Below are positions 252-17,009 of a stretch of 64,000 nucleotides of DNA, piece by piece. Every line of letters starts with the position of its first letter. Position 1 is the stretch's first letter. The DNA lies in assembly GCA_029552245.1 (NCBI GenBank), contig JAKPDW010000071.1, positions 1 through 64,000 on the forward strand. The letters run 5' to 3'. The position numbers and the translations under genes are program-made. Source of the DNA: Deltaproteobacteria bacterium. GTDB lineage: Bacteria; Desulfobacterota; Desulfomonilia; UBA1062. Under the pieces are notes generated by a model, which saw nothing but the letters and a program-made list of their open reading frames with translations, was not told the DNA's origin and searched no databases.

Positions 252-1226
252 TCAGATGATCTCCTCCAGGTGTTTCATCACGAGCTCGGGGGATATCCCC
301 AGCATGCAGAGCGGGGTCGCGCACTTCCTCCTGTTGCATGGCATGCAGGGGAGGTCCAGCCTCACCACGCTCCCCCTGAGAGGGCCCGTCCTTTGGGGAT
401 TGGAAGGTCCGACAAGCACGACGACCTTTTTCCCGAGGGCCACGGCCAGGTGCATGGGCCCGGTGTCACAGCTGACTACCGCCCGTGCCCCCGCGAGGAC
501 CTCCTTGAGCTCGGGGATGCTCGTTTTGCCCGCAAGGTCGACCACGTATCCGCCTGCCAGGGATGCGATCCCGCCCGCCATGGGGACGTCTTCGCGACCC
601 CCGGTGAGGACGGGGGTCATGCCCAGTCTCCGCCCGATCAGGACCGCGAGGCGCGCGAACCCCTCGGGCGTCCACCTGTTGGCCGGCTTTGTGGCGCCTA
701 TGTTGAGCACGATGTAGTCGCCGGTGATCCCGAAGGGCACCCTGCCTGCCACGGGGATGTCCCAGCGGACCTCGTGTTCGTGAACACCCAGGTGGGTCGC
801 GAACTCGAGGTACTGGTAGACCATGTGCTTGGCGGGATCGCCCGCACGGATGCGCTCGAAGGGCAGCATCCACGTGAGTTCCTTGCAGCGGGCCCTGTCG
901 AAGCCGATGCGTCTGGTGCTCGACGATGCCGTGCAGAACAAACCTGACTTGAGGGTGCGCTGGAGATCGAGCGCGATGTCGTAGCGCCGCTGTCTGATGC
1001 GGCTCAGGACGCCGGGAAGGGCCCTGGGCCAGCGGTTCTTGTCGAAGAGGACGACGTCGTCGACCGCGGGGTGTCCTGACACGACGGCGAGGCTCAGCGG
1101 TTCCACGAGCCAGTGGATGCGGGCGCCCATGCGCTCCTTGAGCGTGATTGCCAGGGGGAGCGTGTTGATCACGTCTCCCAGGGCCCCCAGCTTGACGAAG
1201 AGTATATTCATGGGGTGCCTTTCCAT
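252..1226 (-). CDS. Glycosyltransferase family 9 (heptosyltransferase type)
   Basis: A 324-residue member of the GT9 family (WaaC/WaaF/RfaQ-like), which adds ADP-heptose or a related sugar to the LPS inner core on the cytoplasmic side of the inner membrane. The N-terminal ILFVKLGALGDVINTLP and the C-terminal CDTGPMHLAVALGKKVV followed by VGPSNPQRTGP are the family's two donor/acceptor hallmarks. A cysteine-rich tail (CMPCNRRKCATPLC) is common in Desulfobacterota members. The ATG at 1226 is chosen because AGGAG sits 8 nt upstream; a second ATG at 1211 (MNILFVK) has a weaker site. It lies downstream of, and on the same strand as, the methyltransferase gene, 138 nt away. Which heptose position it serves cannot be told. 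Confidence 0.88.
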   Translation of the reverse strand: MERHPMNILFVKLGALGDVINTLPLAITLKERMGARIHWLVEPLSLAVVSGHPAVDDVVLFDKNRWPRALPGVLSRIRQRRYDIALDLQRTLKSGLFCTASSSTRRIGFDRARCKELTWMLPFERIRAGDPAKHMVYQYLEFATHLGVHEHEVRWDIPVAGRVPFGITGDYIVLNIGATKPANRWTPEGFARLAVLIGRRLGMTPVLTGGREDVPMAGGIASLAGGYVVDLAGKTSIPELKEVLAGARAVVSCDTGPMHLAVALGKKVVVLVGPSNPQRTGPLRGSVVRLDLPCMPCNRRKCATPLCMLGISPELVMKHLEEII

Positions 1227-1364
1227 GTCTCGTTCTCCTGTCCGCCCCAACGTGACCCCCTCGAACGGGAGCGGGATGTGCACCGGCCTCGCGTTCTGGA
1301 AGCGGAGACTATCCGGACGATACCATGGAGAACAGGGTCGGTCTCCTGGTACGAGGCGTGGCTT

Positions 1365-2069: not shown

Positions 2070-2237
2070 GCCGATCTCCATCCGCACCCGTTTTTCGTGG
2101 GCCCCGCTTTCTTGAGGGGTGTCCAGCCACTCGCATGCTTGCATGGGCTTTCTTGTTGAACATACCACGCCGACTTGGTACATGGAAGGCCGGTGCCAGG
2201 AAGGGCCGGGAAGGACGATAAGGAGGGAGCGGGTCCC

Positions 2238-3380
2238 ATGGCGCGTATCCTCGTGACAAACTTTCACAAGGGCCCAGGCACAGGGCACACGACGTACATC
2301 AGGACGCTCACCAGGCTGTCCGGGGAATCCGAACACGTCGTGGGTGTCGCCGTCGCGGAGAGGTCGAGGCTCTACAGGCTGCTGAAGGAGCACGGTCACC
2401 CCCACCTCTTTGCCTGTGAATTTCCCAACAGGGTGTTGAAGCGCAAGAAGGACTTCCTATCCAGCATCAGGAGGTTCAGGGACATCGTGAGGGAATTCAG
2501 GCCGGACATCGTCCACACCAACGGAGGCGCCGACCTCTTCGTCAGCCTCTGGAGCCACCCCGTCGCAAGGCCGTACCGGGTCGTAAGGACACACCACGCC
2601 AACCGGAAGATACGGAGCGACCCGTACCATCGGCTCGTCTACGGCCGCCTGACAAGCGCGAACATCTTCGTTTCGGACTCCGCGTACGAAAAGGCCGTCT
2701 CGAGGGGGGTGGTCCCCCACAACGCACTCGTCATAAAGAACGGTGTGGATGTGGACAGGTTCAGGCCCATGGCCAAGGACGACGGGCTCGCCCGCAGGTT
2801 CGGGATCGACGAGGGAACCTTCTGTTTCGGCACCAGCGGCGGCACGAAGTTCTACAAGAGGGTGGACACCATCATCAAGGCCGCCTCCCTCGTGAAGACC
2901 CAGAGGAGATTTGCGATCCTGGTGCTCGGCGGTCCGAACCCCGAGCTCGAAGAGATGGCACGCGCCCTCATCCCGGGCAAGTTCGTCCACCTGGGCTTCC
3001 AGGAGGATGTCGTCCCGTACATCTCGCTCTTCGACGTCGGGTTCATCCTGAGCGATGCGATCGAGACGATCTCCTTTGCTGCCAGGGAGATGATGTCCAT
3101 GGGCAAGCCGCTCATATCGAGCACCTACTCGGGCCTGAAGGAGAACGTGATCCACGGCACAAATGGCCTTCTCGTCGAGCCCGGGGACGTCCGGGGGATA
3201 GCCGAGGCCATGGGCGCCTTTCTTGCAATGGACGTGGAGACGTTGGGGAGGTTCTCGGAGAACGCAAGGCTGCACGCCGTCGAGCACTTCAATGTCCGCG
3301 ATCAGCTCCTCTCGCACGCGAGGCTCTACGATGCACTGGCCCGGCCGGGAAAGCCCACCCGAGGCCTCGTCGGCGCTTGA
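2238..3380 (+). CDS. Glycosyltransferase family 4
   Basis: A 380-residue GT-B fold glycosyltransferase. The N-terminal half begins MARILVTNFHKGPGTGHTTY with the glycine-rich acceptor loop. The C-terminal donor domain carries the usual GT4 elements: FCFGTSGGTKFYKRVD, VLGGPNPELEEMA, FVHLGFQEDVVPYIS and a variant E-x7-E region (ISFAAREMMSMGKPLISS). It probably transfers a sugar from a nucleotide donor to LPS core or O-chain. AGGAGG lies 11 nt before the chosen ATG; an upstream in-frame ATG at 2175 has no ribosome site. It is transcribed away from the methyltransferase. The specific sugar is unknown. Confidence 0.85.
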   Translation: MARILVTNFHKGPGTGHTTYIRTLTRLSGESEHVVGVAVAERSRLYRLLKEHGHPHLFACEFPNRVLKRKKDFLSSIRRFRDIVREFRPDIVHTNGGADLFVSLWSHPVARPYRVVRTHHANRKIRSDPYHRLVYGRLTSANIFVSDSAYEKAVSRGVVPHNALVIKNGVDVDRFRPMAKDDGLARRFGIDEGTFCFGTSGGTKFYKRVDTIIKAASLVKTQRRFAILVLGGPNPELEEMARALIPGKFVHLGFQEDVVPYISLFDVGFILSDAIETISFAAREMMSMGKPLISSTYSGLKENVIHGTNGLLVEPGDVRGIAEAMGAFLAMDVETLGRFSENARLHAVEHFNVRDQLLSHARLYDALARPGKPTRGLVGA

Positions 3381-3972
3381 TGCCCGAGGTGCAGCGAGGC
3401 GGCTCTCACCAAGGCGGCACGAAGGACTCGGCGGCAGAGTCCTCACCGTTTGTGCAGGCCGTCGGCCGGAATCCCCTTGGTGCCCGGGCCTCGAACAGTG
3501 GGTGGCCGCCCCCACGGCGCCCAAGGTAGGCGATGCCGAAGGGGCGGGTGCAGAACGAGAGGCGCTGCAACAACGAGAAGGAGCGGGGGATACTTCGCCC
3601 TTGCCTCCGGGCGCTTCTTGGCCCGGCCCGGGCGGAAGGGTCACCACGTGCACAACGGACGGCGGCCCCGCAGGGACGATCCCGTCGAAGGAAAGATCCC
3701 GCCGGCGCCCATCGAGGTTGCGCGTGGAGAGGGCACATGCGGGTGGATATTGCGGCGACGCTCTGGTATATGGCAAGAGCCCAGGCTGGGGTGCCTGCCT
3801 CGAGAGCGGGCCGTACGTGCGTAGAGCGGGAACGCCCCAGGGGCCCGGCCCGGCGCCAGACAAAAGGCGGCGTCTTGCCCGGACCTACCCGCGGTGTCGT
3901 GCTGCGGATGTGAGGGCGGGCGCTTTGGTGAGCGTGCCGGGATGGGAAAGCTGACGGCAGAGGTGCACACAC
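3381..3972. other. 592-bp spacer without a convincing gene
   Basis: All frames give arginine/proline-rich low-complexity translations and no ribosome site leads into a plausible protein. It holds a perfect hairpin AGGACTC-GGCGGCA-GAGTCCT at 3423-3443, shortly after the GT4 stop. No repeat shared with the other spacers was found by eye. Confidence 0.5.
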
Positions 3973-4755
3973 ATGCCGAACAGGTTGAGCGTCATCGTCC
4001 CCTGCTTCAACGAGGAGCGCAACATCGAGGCCTGCCTCCAGAGCGTGACCTGGGCTGACGAGATCCTCGTCGTCGACTCGTTCAGCACCGACACGACGCT
4101 CGAGATCGCGAGGAGGTACACGGATCGCATCCTCCGGCACGAGTACGTCTATTCGGCTGCGCAGAAGAACTGGGCGATACCGAAGGCGTCGAACGAGTGG
4201 GTGCTCGTCGTGGATGCGGACGAGAGGGTCACTCCCGGCCTCAGGCAGGAGATCGCGGACCTGCTCGAGCAGGGGCCCTCCTTCGACGGGTACTGGATCC
4301 CGAGGAGAAACTTCCTCTTCGGCAGGGAGATAAGGCATTCGGGATGGGGCTCGGACAGCGTGCTGAGGCTCTTCAAGAGGGACGTGGGGAGGTACCGGGA
4401 CAAACGGGTCCACGCGGAGGTGGAGATCAGTCCCGCAGGCCGCCTGAGGCACCATCTCGAGCACCACAGCGTCCCATCGCTTGCGGACTGGGTCGCCAAG
4501 ATCAACAGGTATTCGACCTGGAAGGCCAGGGACAAGCACGAAAAGGGCATGGCCGCGCCGCTCGTGCACCTGGTGGTACGGCCGCCCGCCAGGTTCCTCA
4601 AGGACTTCGTCCTGAGGAGAGGGTTCATGGACGGCTGGAGGGGTTTCGTCATCGCGTCCTTGAGCGCGTTCGCAGAGCTCGTCATGGCGGCCAAGGTGAT
4701 GGAACTCAGGATGGAGGAGAGCGAACGAAACCCCGGTTCGGGGAAGCCCGGATGA
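3973..4755 (+). CDS. Glycosyltransferase family 2 (WaaE/KdtX-like)
   Basis: A 260-residue GT-A enzyme starting MPNRLSVIVPCFNEERNIEA, followed by WADEILVVDSFSTDTTLEIA and the metal-binding DADERVTPGL. The region PRRNFLFGREIRHSGW and the RVHAEV motif are typical of the WaaE/KdtX subgroup, which adds a beta-glucose to the heptose I residue of the LPS core. It is the first gene of a two-gene unit: its stop overlaps the next start in ATGA. AGAGG precedes the start by 7 nt. The assignment to GT2 is firm; the exact linkage is by analogy with WaaE. Confidence 0.88.
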   Translation: MPNRLSVIVPCFNEERNIEACLQSVTWADEILVVDSFSTDTTLEIARRYTDRILRHEYVYSAAQKNWAIPKASNEWVLVVDADERVTPGLRQEIADLLEQGPSFDGYWIPRRNFLFGREIRHSGWGSDSVLRLFKRDVGRYRDKRVHAEVEISPAGRLRHHLEHHSVPSLADWVAKINRYSTWKARDKHEKGMAAPLVHLVVRPPARFLKDFVLRRGFMDGWRGFVIASLSAFAELVMAAKVMELRMEESERNPGSGKPG

Positions 4756-5801
4756 GGATCGTTCACGTGAACCTCGAGCGCACCTGGCGGGGCGGGGAAC
4801 GGCAGGTCGTGTATCTCATGGAAGGGCTCGCCCGGCTTGGCCACGAGTGTCATCTCGTGGCGAGGAAGAACGGGCTCCTGGCAGGGCGGGCAAGGGAGAA
4901 GGGCATACCGGTGCTGGAGGTGCGTAAGCCGTTCGTCGCCCGGGGCTTTGTGCTCGGAGGGTTCGACGTGGTTCACGCCCACGAGACGAGGGCTCTGCAG
5001 ATGGCCGCCCTCTGGAAGGGGTGGAACACATCGCCCGTCGTGTTCACCCGGAGGGTGGACAACCCCCCATCGACAAACCCGGTGACCCGCCTCGTCTATG
5101 GAAAGATAGACAGGATGGCCGTGATCTCCCGCAGGGTGGGCGAGGTCATGGCGAGCTGGGGCTTCGATCCCGGCCGCACGAGGGTTATCCCGAGTTCCGT
5201 CCACCCCCTGGGGGATCCGGACGATGCGACGGTCAGCGGGCTCAGGCGAAGGTTCGACGGCAGGAAGGTCGTCGGCTGCATAGCGGCCCTGGAGAAGCGC
5301 AAGGACCACGCGACCCTCCTCAGGGCGGCATCCGTGGTCTCGTCCCTAAGGGACGACGTGGTCTTCGTGCTCGTGGGCGACGGTGACATGCGGGCGGAGC
5401 TCGAGGCCGAGGCCAGGGCGTTGCGCCTTGCCAACGTCGTGTTCGAGGGGTACAGGGACGACCTTGCCCCCTATTACCGGGTGTTCGACGTCTTCCTCCT
5501 GACCTCGCGCCAGGAGGGGCTCGGCAGCTCGATACTGGATGCGATGGCGTGCGGCGTGCCGGTGGTGGCGACGCGGGCGGGCGGTATACCCGAGATCGTC
5601 CACGACGGCGAGACTGGCCTGCTCGTGGATGTCGGCGACGCCGAGGGCGTCGCACGGGCGGTGCTCAGGATGCTCCACGACGAGAGGCTGAGGCGAGGTT
5701 GCATCGATGCGGGACGCCGCATGGTACGCGAGGGGTACACGGTGGAGGCCATGGCGAAGTCCTACCATGACCTCTACGCGGAGCTCGTCCAGGGGGCGTG
5801 A
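4752..5801 (+). CDS. Glycosyltransferase family 4
   Basis: A 349-residue GT4 protein beginning MRIVHVNLERTWRGGERQVV, whose glycine-rich WRGGERQ is the GT-B acceptor loop. The donor domain shows VGCIAALEKRKDHATLL, VLVGDGDMRAELEAEA, VVFEGYRDDLAPYYRVFDVF and the E-x7-E motif region SRQEGLGSSILDAMACGVPV. The start overlaps the GT2 stop by 4 nt (ATGA), so translation is probably coupled and the two enzymes probably act in succession on the LPS core. The sugar transferred is not known. Confidence 0.88.
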   Translation: MRIVHVNLERTWRGGERQVVYLMEGLARLGHECHLVARKNGLLAGRAREKGIPVLEVRKPFVARGFVLGGFDVVHAHETRALQMAALWKGWNTSPVVFTRRVDNPPSTNPVTRLVYGKIDRMAVISRRVGEVMASWGFDPGRTRVIPSSVHPLGDPDDATVSGLRRRFDGRKVVGCIAALEKRKDHATLLRAASVVSSLRDDVVFVLVGDGDMRAELEAEARALRLANVVFEGYRDDLAPYYRVFDVFLLTSRQEGLGSSILDAMACGVPVVATRAGGIPEIVHDGETGLLVDVGDAEGVARAVLRMLHDERLRRGCIDAGRRMVREGYTVEAMAKSYHDLYAELVQGA

Positions 5802-6179
5802 CGTGGGACCTGGCCCGGCCCGCGACGACACCCGGCAGGACCCCTCGGCATGGGCTGAGGGGACAGGGAAGTGATGAGCCCTGTGCCGGACATGGCACGG
5901 TTGTGCCGGTTGTTGACCGGGTGGCCGCCCGGTGGTGCCGAGCTGCTCCTGGGGACCGTGTCGGGACGCTCCCACCCGCTGCCGCGTGCGGCCTGTTTCC
6001 GGTTGTGCCCCAAGGCGCGGTGAGCAGAGAGGCCGGGGCATCCGAGGGCGATGGCCCGTGGAGATGTCGTGCCTCACCGCAAAGGGCGGGGGCGCGCACG
6101 TGCCCCTTGGGCGCCGAAGGAGAGAGACGGGGGGCGGCGTCCGGGGGACCGATACCTCAAGACGACGGGGAGGGCGTGA
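5802..6179. other. 378-bp spacer with two hairpins, no gene seen
   Basis: There is no plausible protein in either strand. It holds a 9-bp hairpin at 5841-5862 (CCCCTCGGC-ATGG-GCTGAGGGG, one G-T wobble) and a 6-bp hairpin at 5916-5933 (ACCGGG-TGGCCG-CCCGGT). The first is 40 nt past the GT4 stop and may end that transcript, but no T-run follows. Confidence 0.5.
5841..5862. repeat. 9-bp hairpin downstream of the GT2-GT4 pair
   Basis: The arms are 5841-5849 and 5854-5862 with loop ATGG and one G-T pair. It is the longest simple stem in this spacer and a candidate 3' end for the upstream operon. No U-tract follows. Confidence 0.5.
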
Positions 6180-7148
6180 ATGCCCAGGATCATGGTCTTC
6201 GGCAAGTCGAAGAGGAAGACGAGGAAGGTTGCACACATTGCGAGGGCCTTCAGGGAGCTGGGCAACGAGACCCTGTGGATCAATGCCCAGAAGACGAGGA
6301 GGTTCTTGGGCCCTCTTTCCGAGCCGTACCTCCTCATGAGGATCCGGAGGTTCGACCCGGACATCGTGTTCATCCACAGCATGGACCTGCCGCTCACGGT
6401 TCTCGAGAGGATTTCCGGCGGGAAGGCGGTGATCGTCATGTACTATCACGACGGCTGGAGGCTCGACCAGATCGAGAAGGTGGGGATGTGGGGCAGCAAG
6501 GTGGATCTCTTCCTGGAGAACGCCGAGGGTATCCACGACAGGTTCCGAGAGGTGGGCATACGCGAGCCCGTCTTCATTCTCGAAGGCTGCGACAGGCATG
6601 ATCACAGGGTGAGGAAGGCCTTGCTCCCCGTCTGGAAGTCCGACGTGGCGTTCGTGGGTGCGGCGCGGGAGGGGGAGGCACGGGTCAGACTGGTAAGAGA
6701 GCTCTCGCGGATATGCGAGGTGAAGGTCTACGGAAAGGGCTGGAGGAAGTTCGGCATCAAGGCGACCCTGCCGGAGGTGCGGCCCCGGGGGTATGCCAAG
6801 GTGTGCTCGGGGGCGAAGATCGTCCTCGGCGTCGATGCGGTCACGACCATCAGGGGGCACTGGACGAACCGGCTGTGGTTGACGCTCGGGTGCGGCGGGT
6901 TCCACCTCACCAACTACATCCCGGGCATGGAGGAGGTGTTCGAGAACAGGACCCACCTCGTGTGGTACCACAGCGAAGAGGAGTGCGTCAGCCTCGTGCA
7001 GGAGTACCTGTCGAAGCCCGAGGAGAGGAAGAGGATCGCCATGGCAGGCTACCGGTACGTGCACGAACACCACACCTTCCACCACTTTGCGCAGAGGGTG
7101 CTGGACCTGTGCGGGAAGGTTTCGAAGCCTACAGGCGAGCGGGGGTAG
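6180..7148 (+). CDS. CgeB-like glycosyltransferase (Glyco_trans_1_2 type)
   Basis: A 322-residue protein beginning MPRIMVFGKSKRKTRKVAHI. It resembles the CgeB/YkvP group of glycosyltransferases: an N-terminal half ending in YYHDGW, a central DVAFVGAAREGEARVRLVRE, and a C-terminal donor region with NRLWLTLGCGGFHLTNYIPG followed by LVWYHSEEECVSLVQEYL. These features match the Glyco_trans_1_2 domain. The start is preceded by GGGGAGG. Its position between GT4 genes and the WaaP-like kinase suggests a role in LPS core or surface-glycan assembly. The sugar is unknown. Confidence 0.8.
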   Translation: MPRIMVFGKSKRKTRKVAHIARAFRELGNETLWINAQKTRRFLGPLSEPYLLMRIRRFDPDIVFIHSMDLPLTVLERISGGKAVIVMYYHDGWRLDQIEKVGMWGSKVDLFLENAEGIHDRFREVGIREPVFILEGCDRHDHRVRKALLPVWKSDVAFVGAAREGEARVRLVRELSRICEVKVYGKGWRKFGIKATLPEVRPRGYAKVCSGAKIVLGVDAVTTIRGHWTNRLWLTLGCGGFHLTNYIPGMEEVFENRTHLVWYHSEEECVSLVQEYLSKPEERKRIAMAGYRYVHEHHTFHHFAQRVLDLCGKVSKPTGERG

Positions 7149-7209
7149 TCTCGAGGGCTCGACCCCGAGACCGAAAGGACGGTGTCGGACAAAAGCGAGG
7201 GAGAAGCCA

Positions 7210-8670
7210 GTGGATACCGCTGTTGACCTCAGGCCGAAGCTCTCCCGCGTATCGAGGGTGCACATGGGCGGGCCGTTTCCCGAGCCCGTGCCCCTGGTCG
7301 TCCCGGGGCTCGGCGTCGTGAGGTGCTCGAAGATACTCCAGGTCTACGAGCGCAAGAGGCTCACGTGCCTCGGTCTTCTCGACAGGCACCGCAACGGCGG
7401 CACGCAAGAGGACAAGGTCGTCGTCAAGCTCTACTTCGCGAGAATGCGGGCGGCGAGGCAATGGAGGAAGGGGGACCGGGGGTTCAGGGTCTTCATGGAA
7501 GGCGGCGTGGCCGCACCTGCAGTGCTCTTTTCCGGGTACCTCCCCGGCCATGGGGTCTACGCCGCTGTGTACGAATACCTGGAGTCGGCCGAGAACCTGG
7601 ACGAGGTGCTTCAAAGGACTTCGGCCGAACGGGACAGGCGCCCCATGCTCGAGGCCCTCATCGAAGCGGTGGCCCTCCAGCATGCATCCGGCGTCGTCCA
7701 GAAGGATCTCAGGGCGTCCAACTTCATGGTGAGGTCGGGAAACGTCTACGCCATCGACGGCGACCTCGTGAGGGGTTTCACAGCACCATTGGACCGTGAG
7801 ACTTCCCTGGAAAACCTCGCGTGGCTTTTGGCCAACAACCGGGCCTTCTTCGGAGACCATGTCCACGACTGGTACACCCTGTACTGCGTGAAGAGGGGGT
7901 GGGAGGCTGAACCCCGGGAGGAGAGGCGCCTTACGGGGGAGATCTTCCGGGTCAGGAGGAGGAACTTTAAGAAAACCCTCCGTAAGGTGTTTTCCTCGAG
8001 GGATGTCTTCGTCTCAAGAAAGGAGAGGGGCCTTTTCGTGCTCCACCGGAGGGACAGGCCCTGGCTGGGGCCGAAAGAAATCCTCTCGCTCATCGAGGGC
8101 CTTCCCGCCGCCAAGGGAGAGAGGGATGGCTCCCTGTCCCGATACGAGGTGCGCTCGAATCACGGCGGATTGCTCGTGTTTTGTTCGGCAGGGTTCCTGT
8201 TTTCCGGGAGGAGGGGCTTCGGGAAAGTGGGCGGGCTGTGGAGGAACGCCTACATGTTGCGGTGGCTGGGCATCAAGGCCCCGTCGCCCCTGGCGCTGGT
8301 ACGAAGCGGCGTGCCCATGGGGAGATGCGTGAGCTGGGCGGTCTTCGAGTGCGTCGAGGGGGTGCCTCTCGGCAGCTTCCTCCGTTCGCCCGGTGTCTCA
8401 GAGAGAGAGATGTCGCAGGTCCTCCCGAGGCTCGCCCGTACCCTCTCGACCCTGTTCAGGTTCGGATTGGGGCTCGAGCGCCTGAGGTCCGACGAGATCA
8501 TGGTCATGGACGACGCGGTCGCGCTGTCGGCGCTGGAAGCGGTGCGCATGGCCGTGAGGACGGAGGCGGCTGTGAGAAGGCTCTGTTCCGACTTCTTGAC
8601 CGAGTGGGAGGACGCGCCTGAGGTCAAGTCGGGGATTGAGGCCTCGTTGAGGAGCGAGGGCCTTTTATGA
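7210..8670 (+). CDS. WaaP/Kdo-kinase-like protein with a degenerate second kinase domain
   Basis: A 486-residue protein with two kinase-like halves. The first half keeps the marks of the LPS kinase (Kdo/WaaP) fold: K73 in VVVKLYFARM, the catalytic loop QKDLRASN (D166, N171) and the metal-binding AIDGDLV (D183). The second half (about 310-486) has the WaaP-type N-lobe signature WRNAYMLRWLGIKAPSP (from W344), but where a catalytic loop should be it reads LERLRSDEIMV (422-432) and no metal-binding aspartate follows, so it looks like a pseudokinase. The likely job is phosphorylating a heptose or Kdo in the LPS core. The GTG at 7210 has GGAG 6 nt upstream; the ATG at 7264 (GAGG 6 nt upstream) is an equally possible start. 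Confidence 0.72.
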   Translation: MDTAVDLRPKLSRVSRVHMGGPFPEPVPLVVPGLGVVRCSKILQVYERKRLTCLGLLDRHRNGGTQEDKVVVKLYFARMRAARQWRKGDRGFRVFMEGGVAAPAVLFSGYLPGHGVYAAVYEYLESAENLDEVLQRTSAERDRRPMLEALIEAVALQHASGVVQKDLRASNFMVRSGNVYAIDGDLVRGFTAPLDRETSLENLAWLLANNRAFFGDHVHDWYTLYCVKRGWEAEPREERRLTGEIFRVRRRNFKKTLRKVFSSRDVFVSRKERGLFVLHRRDRPWLGPKEILSLIEGLPAAKGERDGSLSRYEVRSNHGGLLVFCSAGFLFSGRRGFGKVGGLWRNAYMLRWLGIKAPSPLALVRSGVPMGRCVSWAVFECVEGVPLGSFLRSPGVSEREMSQVLPRLARTLSTLFRFGLGLERLRSDEIMVMDDAVALSALEAVRMAVRTEAAVRRLCSDFLTEWEDAPEVKSGIEASLRSEGLL

Positions 8671-8807
8671 TACCATCCCTTCTCGCGGCCATGCCCCACC
8701 AGGCATGACGCTATGCCCCGCGCATGGACGAGGAGCGCCTCTCGAGGCGGCCTTTCCCGGCCGCCCGCAAGGCCTCCGGAGCCTGTGCCCCGGGAAAGGA
8801 GATCACG

Positions 8808-9257
8808 ATGGACCAGGGCGAGTCGGAGGGGAAAGGGCGGCTGAAGGCGGTCGCCGTCATCGCGATCGTCACGTTCCTGGCAGGCGGGATCCTCGGGTAC
8901 TACATCTGGGGGTACCGGGGGCATCACCCACCGGATTACAAGGAGATGCTCAGGCAGACCATATCCTACATCTCCGCGCTCGAGGAGAAGAACCGCGAGC
9001 TCGCATCCCGCGTGAGCGGCCTGGAGAACGAGACCGCCTCGTTGAAGAAGAGGCTCGGCGAGGTCCCGGCCCAGGGCGTGCAGGACTCTGCCCGGACCGC
9101 CGAGCGGGAGCGGGAGTACGCCGAGCTCAAGGCAAAGGCCCAGGAGCGTGACGAGCTCCTCAAGGAGAACCAGCTGCTTCGCGAGAGGGTCCGATCCCTC
9201 GTGGAGGAGCTGCACGCGTCCGGCAGGCAACAAGGCGCCGCAAACACCTCTCCCTGA
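8808..9257 (+). CDS. Single-pass membrane protein with a long coiled coil
   Basis: A 149-residue protein of no recognised family. A short charged N-terminus precedes one membrane segment (AVAVIAIVTFLAGGILGYYI, about residues 14-33). A mostly helical region then runs to the end, with heptad-like leucines and glutamates (ISALEEKNRELASRVSGLEN; ELLKENQLLRERVRSLVEEL), so a coiled coil on the periplasmic side is likely. The start is set by AGGAG 6 nt before ATG 8808. It follows the LPS kinase by 137 nt in the same direction. A role in envelope assembly or tethering is only inference. Confidence 0.72.
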   Translation: MDQGESEGKGRLKAVAVIAIVTFLAGGILGYYIWGYRGHHPPDYKEMLRQTISYISALEEKNRELASRVSGLENETASLKKRLGEVPAQGVQDSARTAEREREYAELKAKAQERDELLKENQLLRERVRSLVEELHASGRQQGAANTSP

Positions 9258-15308: not shown

Positions 15309-15617
15309 ATGAAGGACCGCAGGGCGCACAAGAGGGTGAAGGTGGACTTGCGGGCTGCCTACAAGGACGACGGGTTCGTCCTGCGTACAGGCAGGGTGCT
15401 GAATCTCGGCAAGGGGGGCATGTACCTCGAGACGGGCCGCGGTGTGGCGCTCGGGGGCTTCGTGGACGCCAGCATAGACGACAGGGAGTTCGGCAAGGTC
15501 ATCTCCGTGAGGGGGAGGGTGGCCCACAAGACGCCCGATGGTGTGGGGGTCACCTTCGTGCGGGTGGATAGGCTGGGGCTCATGAATATCCTCACCTATC
15601 ACGGCGCGCCCTTCTGA
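15309..15617 (+). CDS. PilZ-domain protein
   Basis: A 102-residue single-domain PilZ protein, a likely c-di-GMP receptor. It has the arginine motif RRAHKR near the start and NLGKGGM in place of the usual D/N-x-S-x-x-G; the serine position is glycine, so binding may be altered. Start ATG 15309 follows GTGGGATGAG, a modest ribosome site. HD-GYP proteins elsewhere in the window point to the same second messenger. The output is unknown. Confidence 0.85.
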   Translation: MKDRRAHKRVKVDLRAAYKDDGFVLRTGRVLNLGKGGMYLETGRGVALGGFVDASIDDREFGKVISVRGRVAHKTPDGVGVTFVRVDRLGLMNILTYHGAPF

Positions 15618-15874
15618 GGGGCCGCTTGCACGCCCGGGCAAACGCCGTTCCCTTCGCGGCCGTGCCGGGGTATCCATCGCGGGTGTGAGGACCGGGTCGA
15701 CCCCGGGCGACGAGGTTGATCGAGCCCTACGTCCCGATCCTGCTCGCCCCCCATGGGGAGGGGACGTTCTTCCTTGCGCGGGCTGCGAGGTTCATCGAGT
15801 TCCGGGGCTTATTCCCGCTGAGGGTGGAGACCGTCTCAACCCCTGGGCCCTCGTCGCATACCCTGGGCCGATAC

Positions 15875-16891
15875 TCACTTTCGGCCGAGAACCAGCGCAC
15901 CCTTCTCGATGAGCTCCTTGGATTGAACCACGAGCCCCATGGAAGACGAGTCCAGGGACTGGAGCACCACGATGACGCCTATGGGATCATGGAACGACGC
16001 GGCTTGCCTGTTTGCATCACCGCCCAGGGCGTCGGTCTTCCTGTAGACCGACAGGAGGGCTCCCTTTTCCACCCCCTGCCTCGTGCCGGCGTTCACGAAG
16101 ACGAGGTCGAAGGTGGCCCCGCCCACGACCCCGCCGTGGTGATCCATGACCACCCCGGAGATGCCCGATGGTTCGGATATGTCGAGGGCCACGGGTTTTA
16201 TGGGCGGGATGTCGTCGAAGATGATGCTGCCGATCCGCGATTCCTGGAGAGAGTACGTGACGGTGGCCTTGACGAGGCCGCCCACGACCTCGTCAACCCG
16301 CGCCATCCCCGTGATGCGGTAGAGGTACCCTGCAGAATCGCCTTCCTCGTCAACGATGTCCTGGATCTTGGTCACGATGGTGACGACCTGGTCTTTCTTG
16401 AAGGCGGAGCCCGAACTGATGACGATGTGGTCGTTCTCCGAGATGAGCTCGCCGTTTTCGACCTTCCTGACGATCTCGCCGGAGCCTTTGAGCAGGTTGG
16501 GGCTGAACATGTACAAGGCGAACTGGGGGGCCAGCACTACCGACTTGTCCTTGACTGAGGCGATCTCCCGGGGTGTGTAGAAGACGGCCTCGCGCTCTTC
16601 TCCCCCTCGTTCAGGCGAGGGGATGATCTTCAGGATCGTCCTGCCGCCCTCGGTCGTGATGATCACCCTGTCCCCGGGGTATATGAGGTGGGGGTTCGTG
16701 ATGTCCTGGTTGTTCGCCCAGACGAGAGGCCACTTCCACGGCGTCTTGAGGTACTTCATGGAGATGTCCCACAGGGTGTCCCCCTTCACCACGGTATGGG
16801 TGGTTTCCTCCGCCCTCAGGTCGGAGGTGCCCCTGAAGGCCAGGAACACAACGACTGCCAGGAAAACGATGGGAAGGCTCGGCTTTCTCAA
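15875..16891 (-). CDS. LysM-domain secreted or periplasmic protein
   Basis: A 338-residue exported protein. A signal peptide (LPIVFLAVVVFLAFRGTSDLRA) is followed by one LysM domain (THTVVKGDTLWDISMKYLKT ... NPHLIYPGDRV, about residues 30-80) that should bind peptidoglycan, and then a long beta-rich region with no named family. The start is decided by the ribosome site: a full AAAGGAGG lies 7 nt before TTG 16891, whereas upstream in-frame ATGs have none and would place the signal peptide too far in. Similar LysM proteins are common next to housekeeping genes in Desulfobacterota. It is divergent from the winged-helix gene. Confidence 0.85.
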   Translation of the reverse strand: MRKPSLPIVFLAVVVFLAFRGTSDLRAEETTHTVVKGDTLWDISMKYLKTPWKWPLVWANNQDITNPHLIYPGDRVIITTEGGRTILKIIPSPERGGEEREAVFYTPREIASVKDKSVVLAPQFALYMFSPNLLKGSGEIVRKVENGELISENDHIVISSGSAFKKDQVVTIVTKIQDIVDEEGDSAGYLYRITGMARVDEVVGGLVKATVTYSLQESRIGSIIFDDIPPIKPVALDISEPSGISGVVMDHHGGVVGGATFDLVFVNAGTRQGVEKGALLSVYRKTDALGGDANRQAASFHDPIGVIVVLQSLDSSSMGLVVQSKELIEKGALVLGRK

Positions 16892-16898
16892 GGCGGAT

Positions 16899-16906
16899 CC
16901 TCCTTT
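16899..16906 (-). promoter_or_regulatory. Ribosome binding site that selects a TTG start
   Basis: AAAGGAGG on the minus strand is a near-perfect anti-16S match, 7 nt before TTG 16891 of the LysM gene. No ATG or GTG is placed as well. Confidence 0.75.
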
Positions 16907-16931
16907 TGCGATCATCTGAACGGACGAGCAC

Positions 16932-16960
16932 ATCATTTGTTTCTTGATCGGATATGTCAA
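16932..16960 (-). promoter_or_regulatory. Possible promoter of the LysM gene
   Basis: A perfect TTGACA (16960-16955) is followed after 17 nt by AATGAT (16937-16932), a weak -10. The predicted leader is about 35 nt and includes the AAAGGAGG site. Confidence 0.45.
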
Positions 16961-16980
16961 GGTCATTCTTGAATCATGCC

Positions 16981-17009
16981 TTGTATCGTCGCGGCCTTTG
17001 GACTAGAGT
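16981..17009 (+). promoter_or_regulatory. Weak promoter, leaderless geometry, before the winged-helix gene
   Basis: TTGTAT (16981-16986), 17 nt, TAGAGT (17004-17009), then 7 nt to ATG 17017. The match to consensus is poor at -35. The spacing equals that seen at hpt. Confidence 0.35.

Follow-up and report, generated by a model that had tools for sequence, protein, structure and literature searches.

A tandem kinase-pseudokinase gene of probable lipopolysaccharide core function in a genus of Desulfobacterota

In Pseudomonas aeruginosa, the lipopolysaccharide (LPS) core cluster PA5012-PA5005 lists PA5006 as a kinase (PMC8005017), and in two-hybrid work the EamA-like transporter PA2576 recovered residues 300-493 of PA5006 as prey (PMC8707732). 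By analogy, this PA5006-PA2576 two-hybrid result suggests that the second domain of a tandem kinase can be an interaction surface. In the LPS kinase WaaP, the position of the kinase Asn is occupied by His (PMC6147952). Tandem LPS kinases as such are known and occur widely across the Proteobacteria and Desulfobacterota. A literature search found no paper that treats them as two-kinase proteins or gives each domain an acceptor, and a review of bacterial pseudokinases from 2025 is silent on LPS and on tandem kinases alike. What is new here is the combination of a kinase and a pseudokinase, found in a stretch of 64,000 nucleotides (the window) from a member of the Desulfobacterota.

The features of the locus are collected in Table 1. 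The start codon of the tandem gene agrees, in the alignment, with the starts of four same-genus orthologs, which are 31-40% identical to its product over the whole length. Outside the genus, independent pairwise support was obtained with a protein of genome G049 (residues 17-474, E 1.7e-35). A pseudogene or frameshift reading of the gene was rejected, the frame being open and full-length in five genomes of the genus. The genome holds two GT9 enzymes and one further protein of the Kdo/WaaP family (PF06293), which is KdkA-like, and gave zero matches for carbamoyltransferase. By contrast, two loci encoding intact tandem kinases (L100 and L102) show the order GT9-GT9-GT4-WaaP-like kinase-gap-Kdo kinase-tandem-carbamoyltransferase, which is that of P. 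aeruginosa PA5012-PA5005; this waaF-waaC-waaG-waaP-...-carbamoyltransferase cluster is found neither in the window nor in its genus. The gene immediately downstream, encoding the coiled-coil protein, has the same place next to the tandem gene in each of the five genus genomes and was not found at 22 other tandem loci. At yet another locus (L103, genome G643), two different tandem kinases are encoded in the same LPS core cluster (7091-8707 and 15499-16998, both on the + strand).

Table 1. Features of the tandem kinase-pseudokinase locus (positions in the window)
Feature	Position	Strand	Details and basis
Tandem kinase-pseudokinase gene	7210..8670	+	486 aa, GTG start; ORF and homologs
Likely ribosome-binding site, purine-rich GAGGGAG (contains GGGAG)	7197..7203	+	by eye
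N-terminal kinase domain, residues 20-270	7267..8019	+	Pfam, alignment, AlphaFold
K73 codon	7426..7428	+	alignment
G88, likely alpha-C Glu position	7471..7473	+	homolog alignment
D166 codon	7705..7707	+	alignment
N171 codon	7720..7722	+	alignment
D183 codon	7756..7758	+	alignment
C-terminal pseudokinase domain, residues 283-486	8056..8667	+	profile comparison, AlphaFold, Foldseek, alignment
W344	8239..8241	+	invariant in 54/54 C-halves
Degenerate catalytic and metal loops: R424 (Asp), E429 (Asn), A441 (metal Asp)	8479..8532	+	alignment
Heptosyltransferase (GT9)	252..1283	-	profile annotation
Upstream glycosyltransferase genes	2175-3380, 3973-4755, 4668-5801, 6180-7148 (span 2175..7148)	+	LPS/surface glycan context
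Downstream gene, 177 aa, one probable transmembrane segment and coiled coil, possible partner	8724..9257	+	

The initial annotation had assigned the catalytic K/D/N/D set of WaaP-like kinases to K73, D166, N171 and D183 of the N-terminal half (N-half). These residues are present at those numbers and are invariant in six aligned homologs. They are likewise conserved in the five members of the genus, together with R50, H158 and Q164; among the 45 homologs whose C-terminal half (C-half) is not dead, N171 and D183 are found in every protein and K73 and D166 in 44. The match of the N-half to PF06293 is weak (24.6 bits for a curated cut-off of 21.3), and the catalytic set expected of this family (K/D/N-or-H/D) is complete in the N-half and incomplete in the C-half.

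For the C-half, the annotation proposed that W344 of the WaaP N-lobe signature was kept and that the catalytic loop and the metal aspartate were lost. Both statements hold: W344 is conserved in 45/45 homologs without a dead C-half, and R424, E429 and A441 occupy columns that are 100% Asp, Asn and Asp, respectively, in intact homologs. Strand beta-3 has also lost its ATP-binding lysine, with zero Lys between residues 303 and 338. Lysine, catalytic Asp, Asn and metal Asp are lost from the C-half of all five genus members, barring one aligned D in L006; a state shared by the whole set of genus genomes, against the 43 of 54 homologs with K/D/N/D in both halves, does not look like an accident of one sequence. 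PF06293 alone gave no match to the C-half of the window protein, whereas in intact homologs the C-half is the best-matching stretch. Nevertheless, the C-half profile matches the N-half profile (probability 98.6, E 5.7e-16) and the two halves are therefore homologous. AlphaFold predicted the isolated C-half with a pLDDT of 89.2 and a pTM of 0.83, with strands and helices in the order seen in kinases; intact homologs were part of the alignment from which it was folded, so that the model does not stand as independent evidence from one sequence. In Foldseek, the C-half model came closest to WaaP among PDB entries (6dfl, E 2.6e-7, TM 0.63/0.54), and the same entry ranked first in the PDB for the full-length model (pLDDT 91.7, pTM 0.84), the likeness of the two halves being judged through the comparison of each with WaaP. 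Structure prediction thus supports the kinase fold that had been claimed for the second half. Taken together, alignment and modelling confirm the C-half as a predicted folded, catalytically dead pseudokinase.

The annotation suggested a search for the same two-domain layout in other Desulfobacterota, where profile searches did find it. Three sets were covered, namely 395 genomes from the phylum, 274 from the class to which a gammaproteobacterial relative belongs, and public genome contigs; a single-protein search of the public contigs gave no match, whereas an alignment-based search of the same contigs did. The plasmid and phage collections yielded zero relatives of the tandem kinase at the sensitivity used. 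Altogether 54 non-redundant tandem homologs were obtained, of which 43 carry K/D/N/D in both halves. The remaining 11 comprise one protein truncated by a contig end, one in which D166 of the N-half is replaced by Asn (L028) and nine with a dead C-half, namely five from the window's genus, two from another family of the phylum (L029/L030) and two from Gammaproteobacteria found in the class search (L075 and L077). Compared with the family profiles, which include the window protein and its genus, the N-half scores 267 bits and the C-half 158 bits. Because two complete kinases are the common state, loss in the C-half is most simply the derived one, and the form with two intact kinases is the usual and probably the ancestral one. 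The intact or dead label needs a minimum of three changes on the tree as drawn, the starred (*) branches alone forcing only one. Both the full-length tree and the N-half tree group L029/L030 with the window's genus (supports of 99 and 94, but on long branches), which suggests a single shared loss of the C-half kinase in these proteins.

Several other arrangements were met during the survey. L028 (genome G311, ORF 1351-2802, + strand) is the reverse case, the catalytic Asp of its N-half being Asn and its C-half being complete. In two same-family genomes, one open frame encodes both a GT2 glycosyltransferase and a Kdo-family kinase (L008:82-2043 and L009:250-2016, both + strand), a fusion that brings together sugar transfer and phosphorylation. 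Two frames of 562 and 549 aa (L031:1216-2901 and L038:451-2097, both + strand) each contain two Kdo-family stretches; their similarity to the tandem family studied here is weak, and they may form a distinct second type of tandem LPS kinase.

The survey also located two unusual positions in the N-half. Position 88 likely corresponds to the alpha-C Glu, as judged from its spacing to the following Gly, which is that of the Glu of KdkA-like kinases. It is E or D in 44 of the 45 homologs without a dead C-half; within the genus, four members have S there and the window protein has G, position 89 being acidic in all five. Among the other proteins with a dead C-half, position 88 is G in L029/L030 and E in L075 and L077. 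The second position, R168, is particular to the window protein, the residue being His in 45/45 homologs without a dead C-half and Asn in L029/L030. Catalytic activity of the N-half is likely from its conserved residues, with an uncertainty that arises from the S or G at the alpha-C Glu position in the genus and from R168 in the window protein. In the C-half, the counterpart of the alpha-C Glu (position 343 in window numbering) is Ser in 39/45 homologs without a dead C-half, despite their K/D/N/D.

In a tree of both halves and free-standing kinases, the N-halves form one clade (97*) and the C-halves are intermixed with single-domain kinases, a topology that does not support a recent internal duplication. 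On phylogenetic grounds, the two halves are members of separate, anciently diverged LPS-kinase subfamilies, the second kinase having been inactivated later. An ancient duplication and an ancient fusion would both fit these data, the deep branches and the root being weak. The initial description of an active kinase joined to its own pseudokinase can accordingly be kept as a K/D/N/D kinase domain, presumably active, fused to a dead kinase-fold domain; the notion that the second half is a copy of the first is not supported, since the halves fall in separate clades.

We regard as probable that the protein works as one kinase carrying a docking or stabilising pseudokinase domain, and that it is a tandem LPS kinase of the PA5006 type by gene order. 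The sequences and the models provide two kinase folds, catalytic loss in the C-half, an open and constrained frame and a glycosyltransferase/LPS context; the docking or stabilising role is our inference from conservation and fold together with the PA5006 interaction. In such a protein, the N-domain would most likely work on the cytoplasmic side of the inner membrane, where it would add phosphate to a sugar in the inner core of nascent lipid A-core. The C-domain would be kept for a non-catalytic function, stabilising the N-domain and serving as a docking site for the acceptor or for a membrane partner.

The rate of evolution of the C-half counts against this interpretation, as it is what would be expected of a passenger. 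Within the genus, C-half identity is lower than N-half identity in 10/10 pairs (mean 32% against 45%), whereas the trend is opposite in 43 intact pairs that have diverged to a similar extent (46% for the C-half and 42% for the N-half). The N-minus-C difference of every genus pair exceeds the maximum of these intact pairs, the pairs being non-independent. The C-half could thus be decaying, the second phosphorylation having become dispensable in the genus and the domain persisting solely for the folding of the N-half or having not yet been lost; the missing carbamoyltransferase match and the single other PF06293 kinase of the genome would be consistent with a simpler core. We nonetheless consider decay rather unlikely. 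The C-half is open and of full length in five deeply diverged genus genomes, with zero stops, frameshifts or truncations. Its GC content by codon position in the window gene is 0.60/0.51/0.85, and in the closest pair the differences at codon positions 1/2/3 are 0.38/0.26/0.48; this codon-position bias, together with fewer changes at position 2 than at position 3, indicates that amino-acid constraint persists. Fold residues are retained as well (W344, A347, L350, G354, P360, A362 and G384 in 5/5 genus members) and the active-site columns vary. Finally, the pseudokinase form also occurs in another family of the phylum. A pseudokinase on which constraint is relaxed yet still real accounts for the C-half data better than a dead passenger does.

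A more specific form of the docking role can be put forward with little confidence: a pseudokinase on the same chain might control or target an envelope sugar kinase, its surface having been recruited to bind the co-conserved coiled-coil protein and so to couple core phosphorylation to a membrane partner. Allosteric control, which the initial annotation raised beside acceptor recognition, appears improbable; in this reading the C-half would regulate the N-kinase, comparable to the pseudokinase domain of JAK, and would also replace the lost alpha-C Glu. Loss of E88 and of C-half catalysis do coincide both in the genus and in L029/L030, and the pTM of the full-length model would suggest that the two domains are arranged in a defined way; however, E88 is kept in L075 and L077 despite their dead C-halves, and the coincidence may reflect a single event on a single branch. 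A scaffold role for the entire protein in the LPS core assembly complex, with neither domain active, is highly improbable. E88 is changed in every genus member and the window protein has R168, but the genus shows an invariant K/D/N/D set with its accompanying residues, and conservation is higher in the N-half than in the C-half.

With one domain inactivated, the genus offers a natural experiment on tandem LPS kinases. If its core phosphates were compared with the ones found in an intact relative, the target of each domain would emerge, as would the answer to whether the second has any importance outside catalysis.

Among known systems, the intact tandem form is likened to the putative LPS kinase type of P. 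aeruginosa PA5006 and P. syringae PSPTO_4997 on gene order, length and annotation: PA5006 has two-kinase length (at least 493 residues) and the intact homologs adjoin waaF, waaC, waaG, waaP-like kinases and a carbamoyltransferase. The window protein differs in its dead second domain, in the lack of an adjoining carbamoyltransferase or WaaP and in the other glycosyltransferase genes around it. The LPS heptose I kinase WaaP shares the kinase fold and the Kdo/WaaP family and is the best PDB match, but it has a single domain with His whereas the window protein has two domains with N171, at an identity of 15-18%; a WaaP orthologue was ruled out by the two domains, N171 and neighbours unlike the waaG setting. 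KdkA and other single-domain Kdo-family kinases share the superfamily, the catalytic-loop Asn and the intermixing with C-halves in the tree, but they are catalytically complete and the window genome has a separate KdkA-like gene. Eukaryotic JAK and plant tandem kinases also combine a kinase and a pseudokinase on one chain, and JAK is among the Foldseek matches of the full model; those are, however, protein kinases in signalling, and the domain order of the window protein is opposite to that of JAK. The window protein is thus best placed as a pseudokinase variant of the PA5006-type tandem, an atypical member in that the complete catalytic set is not present in both domains.
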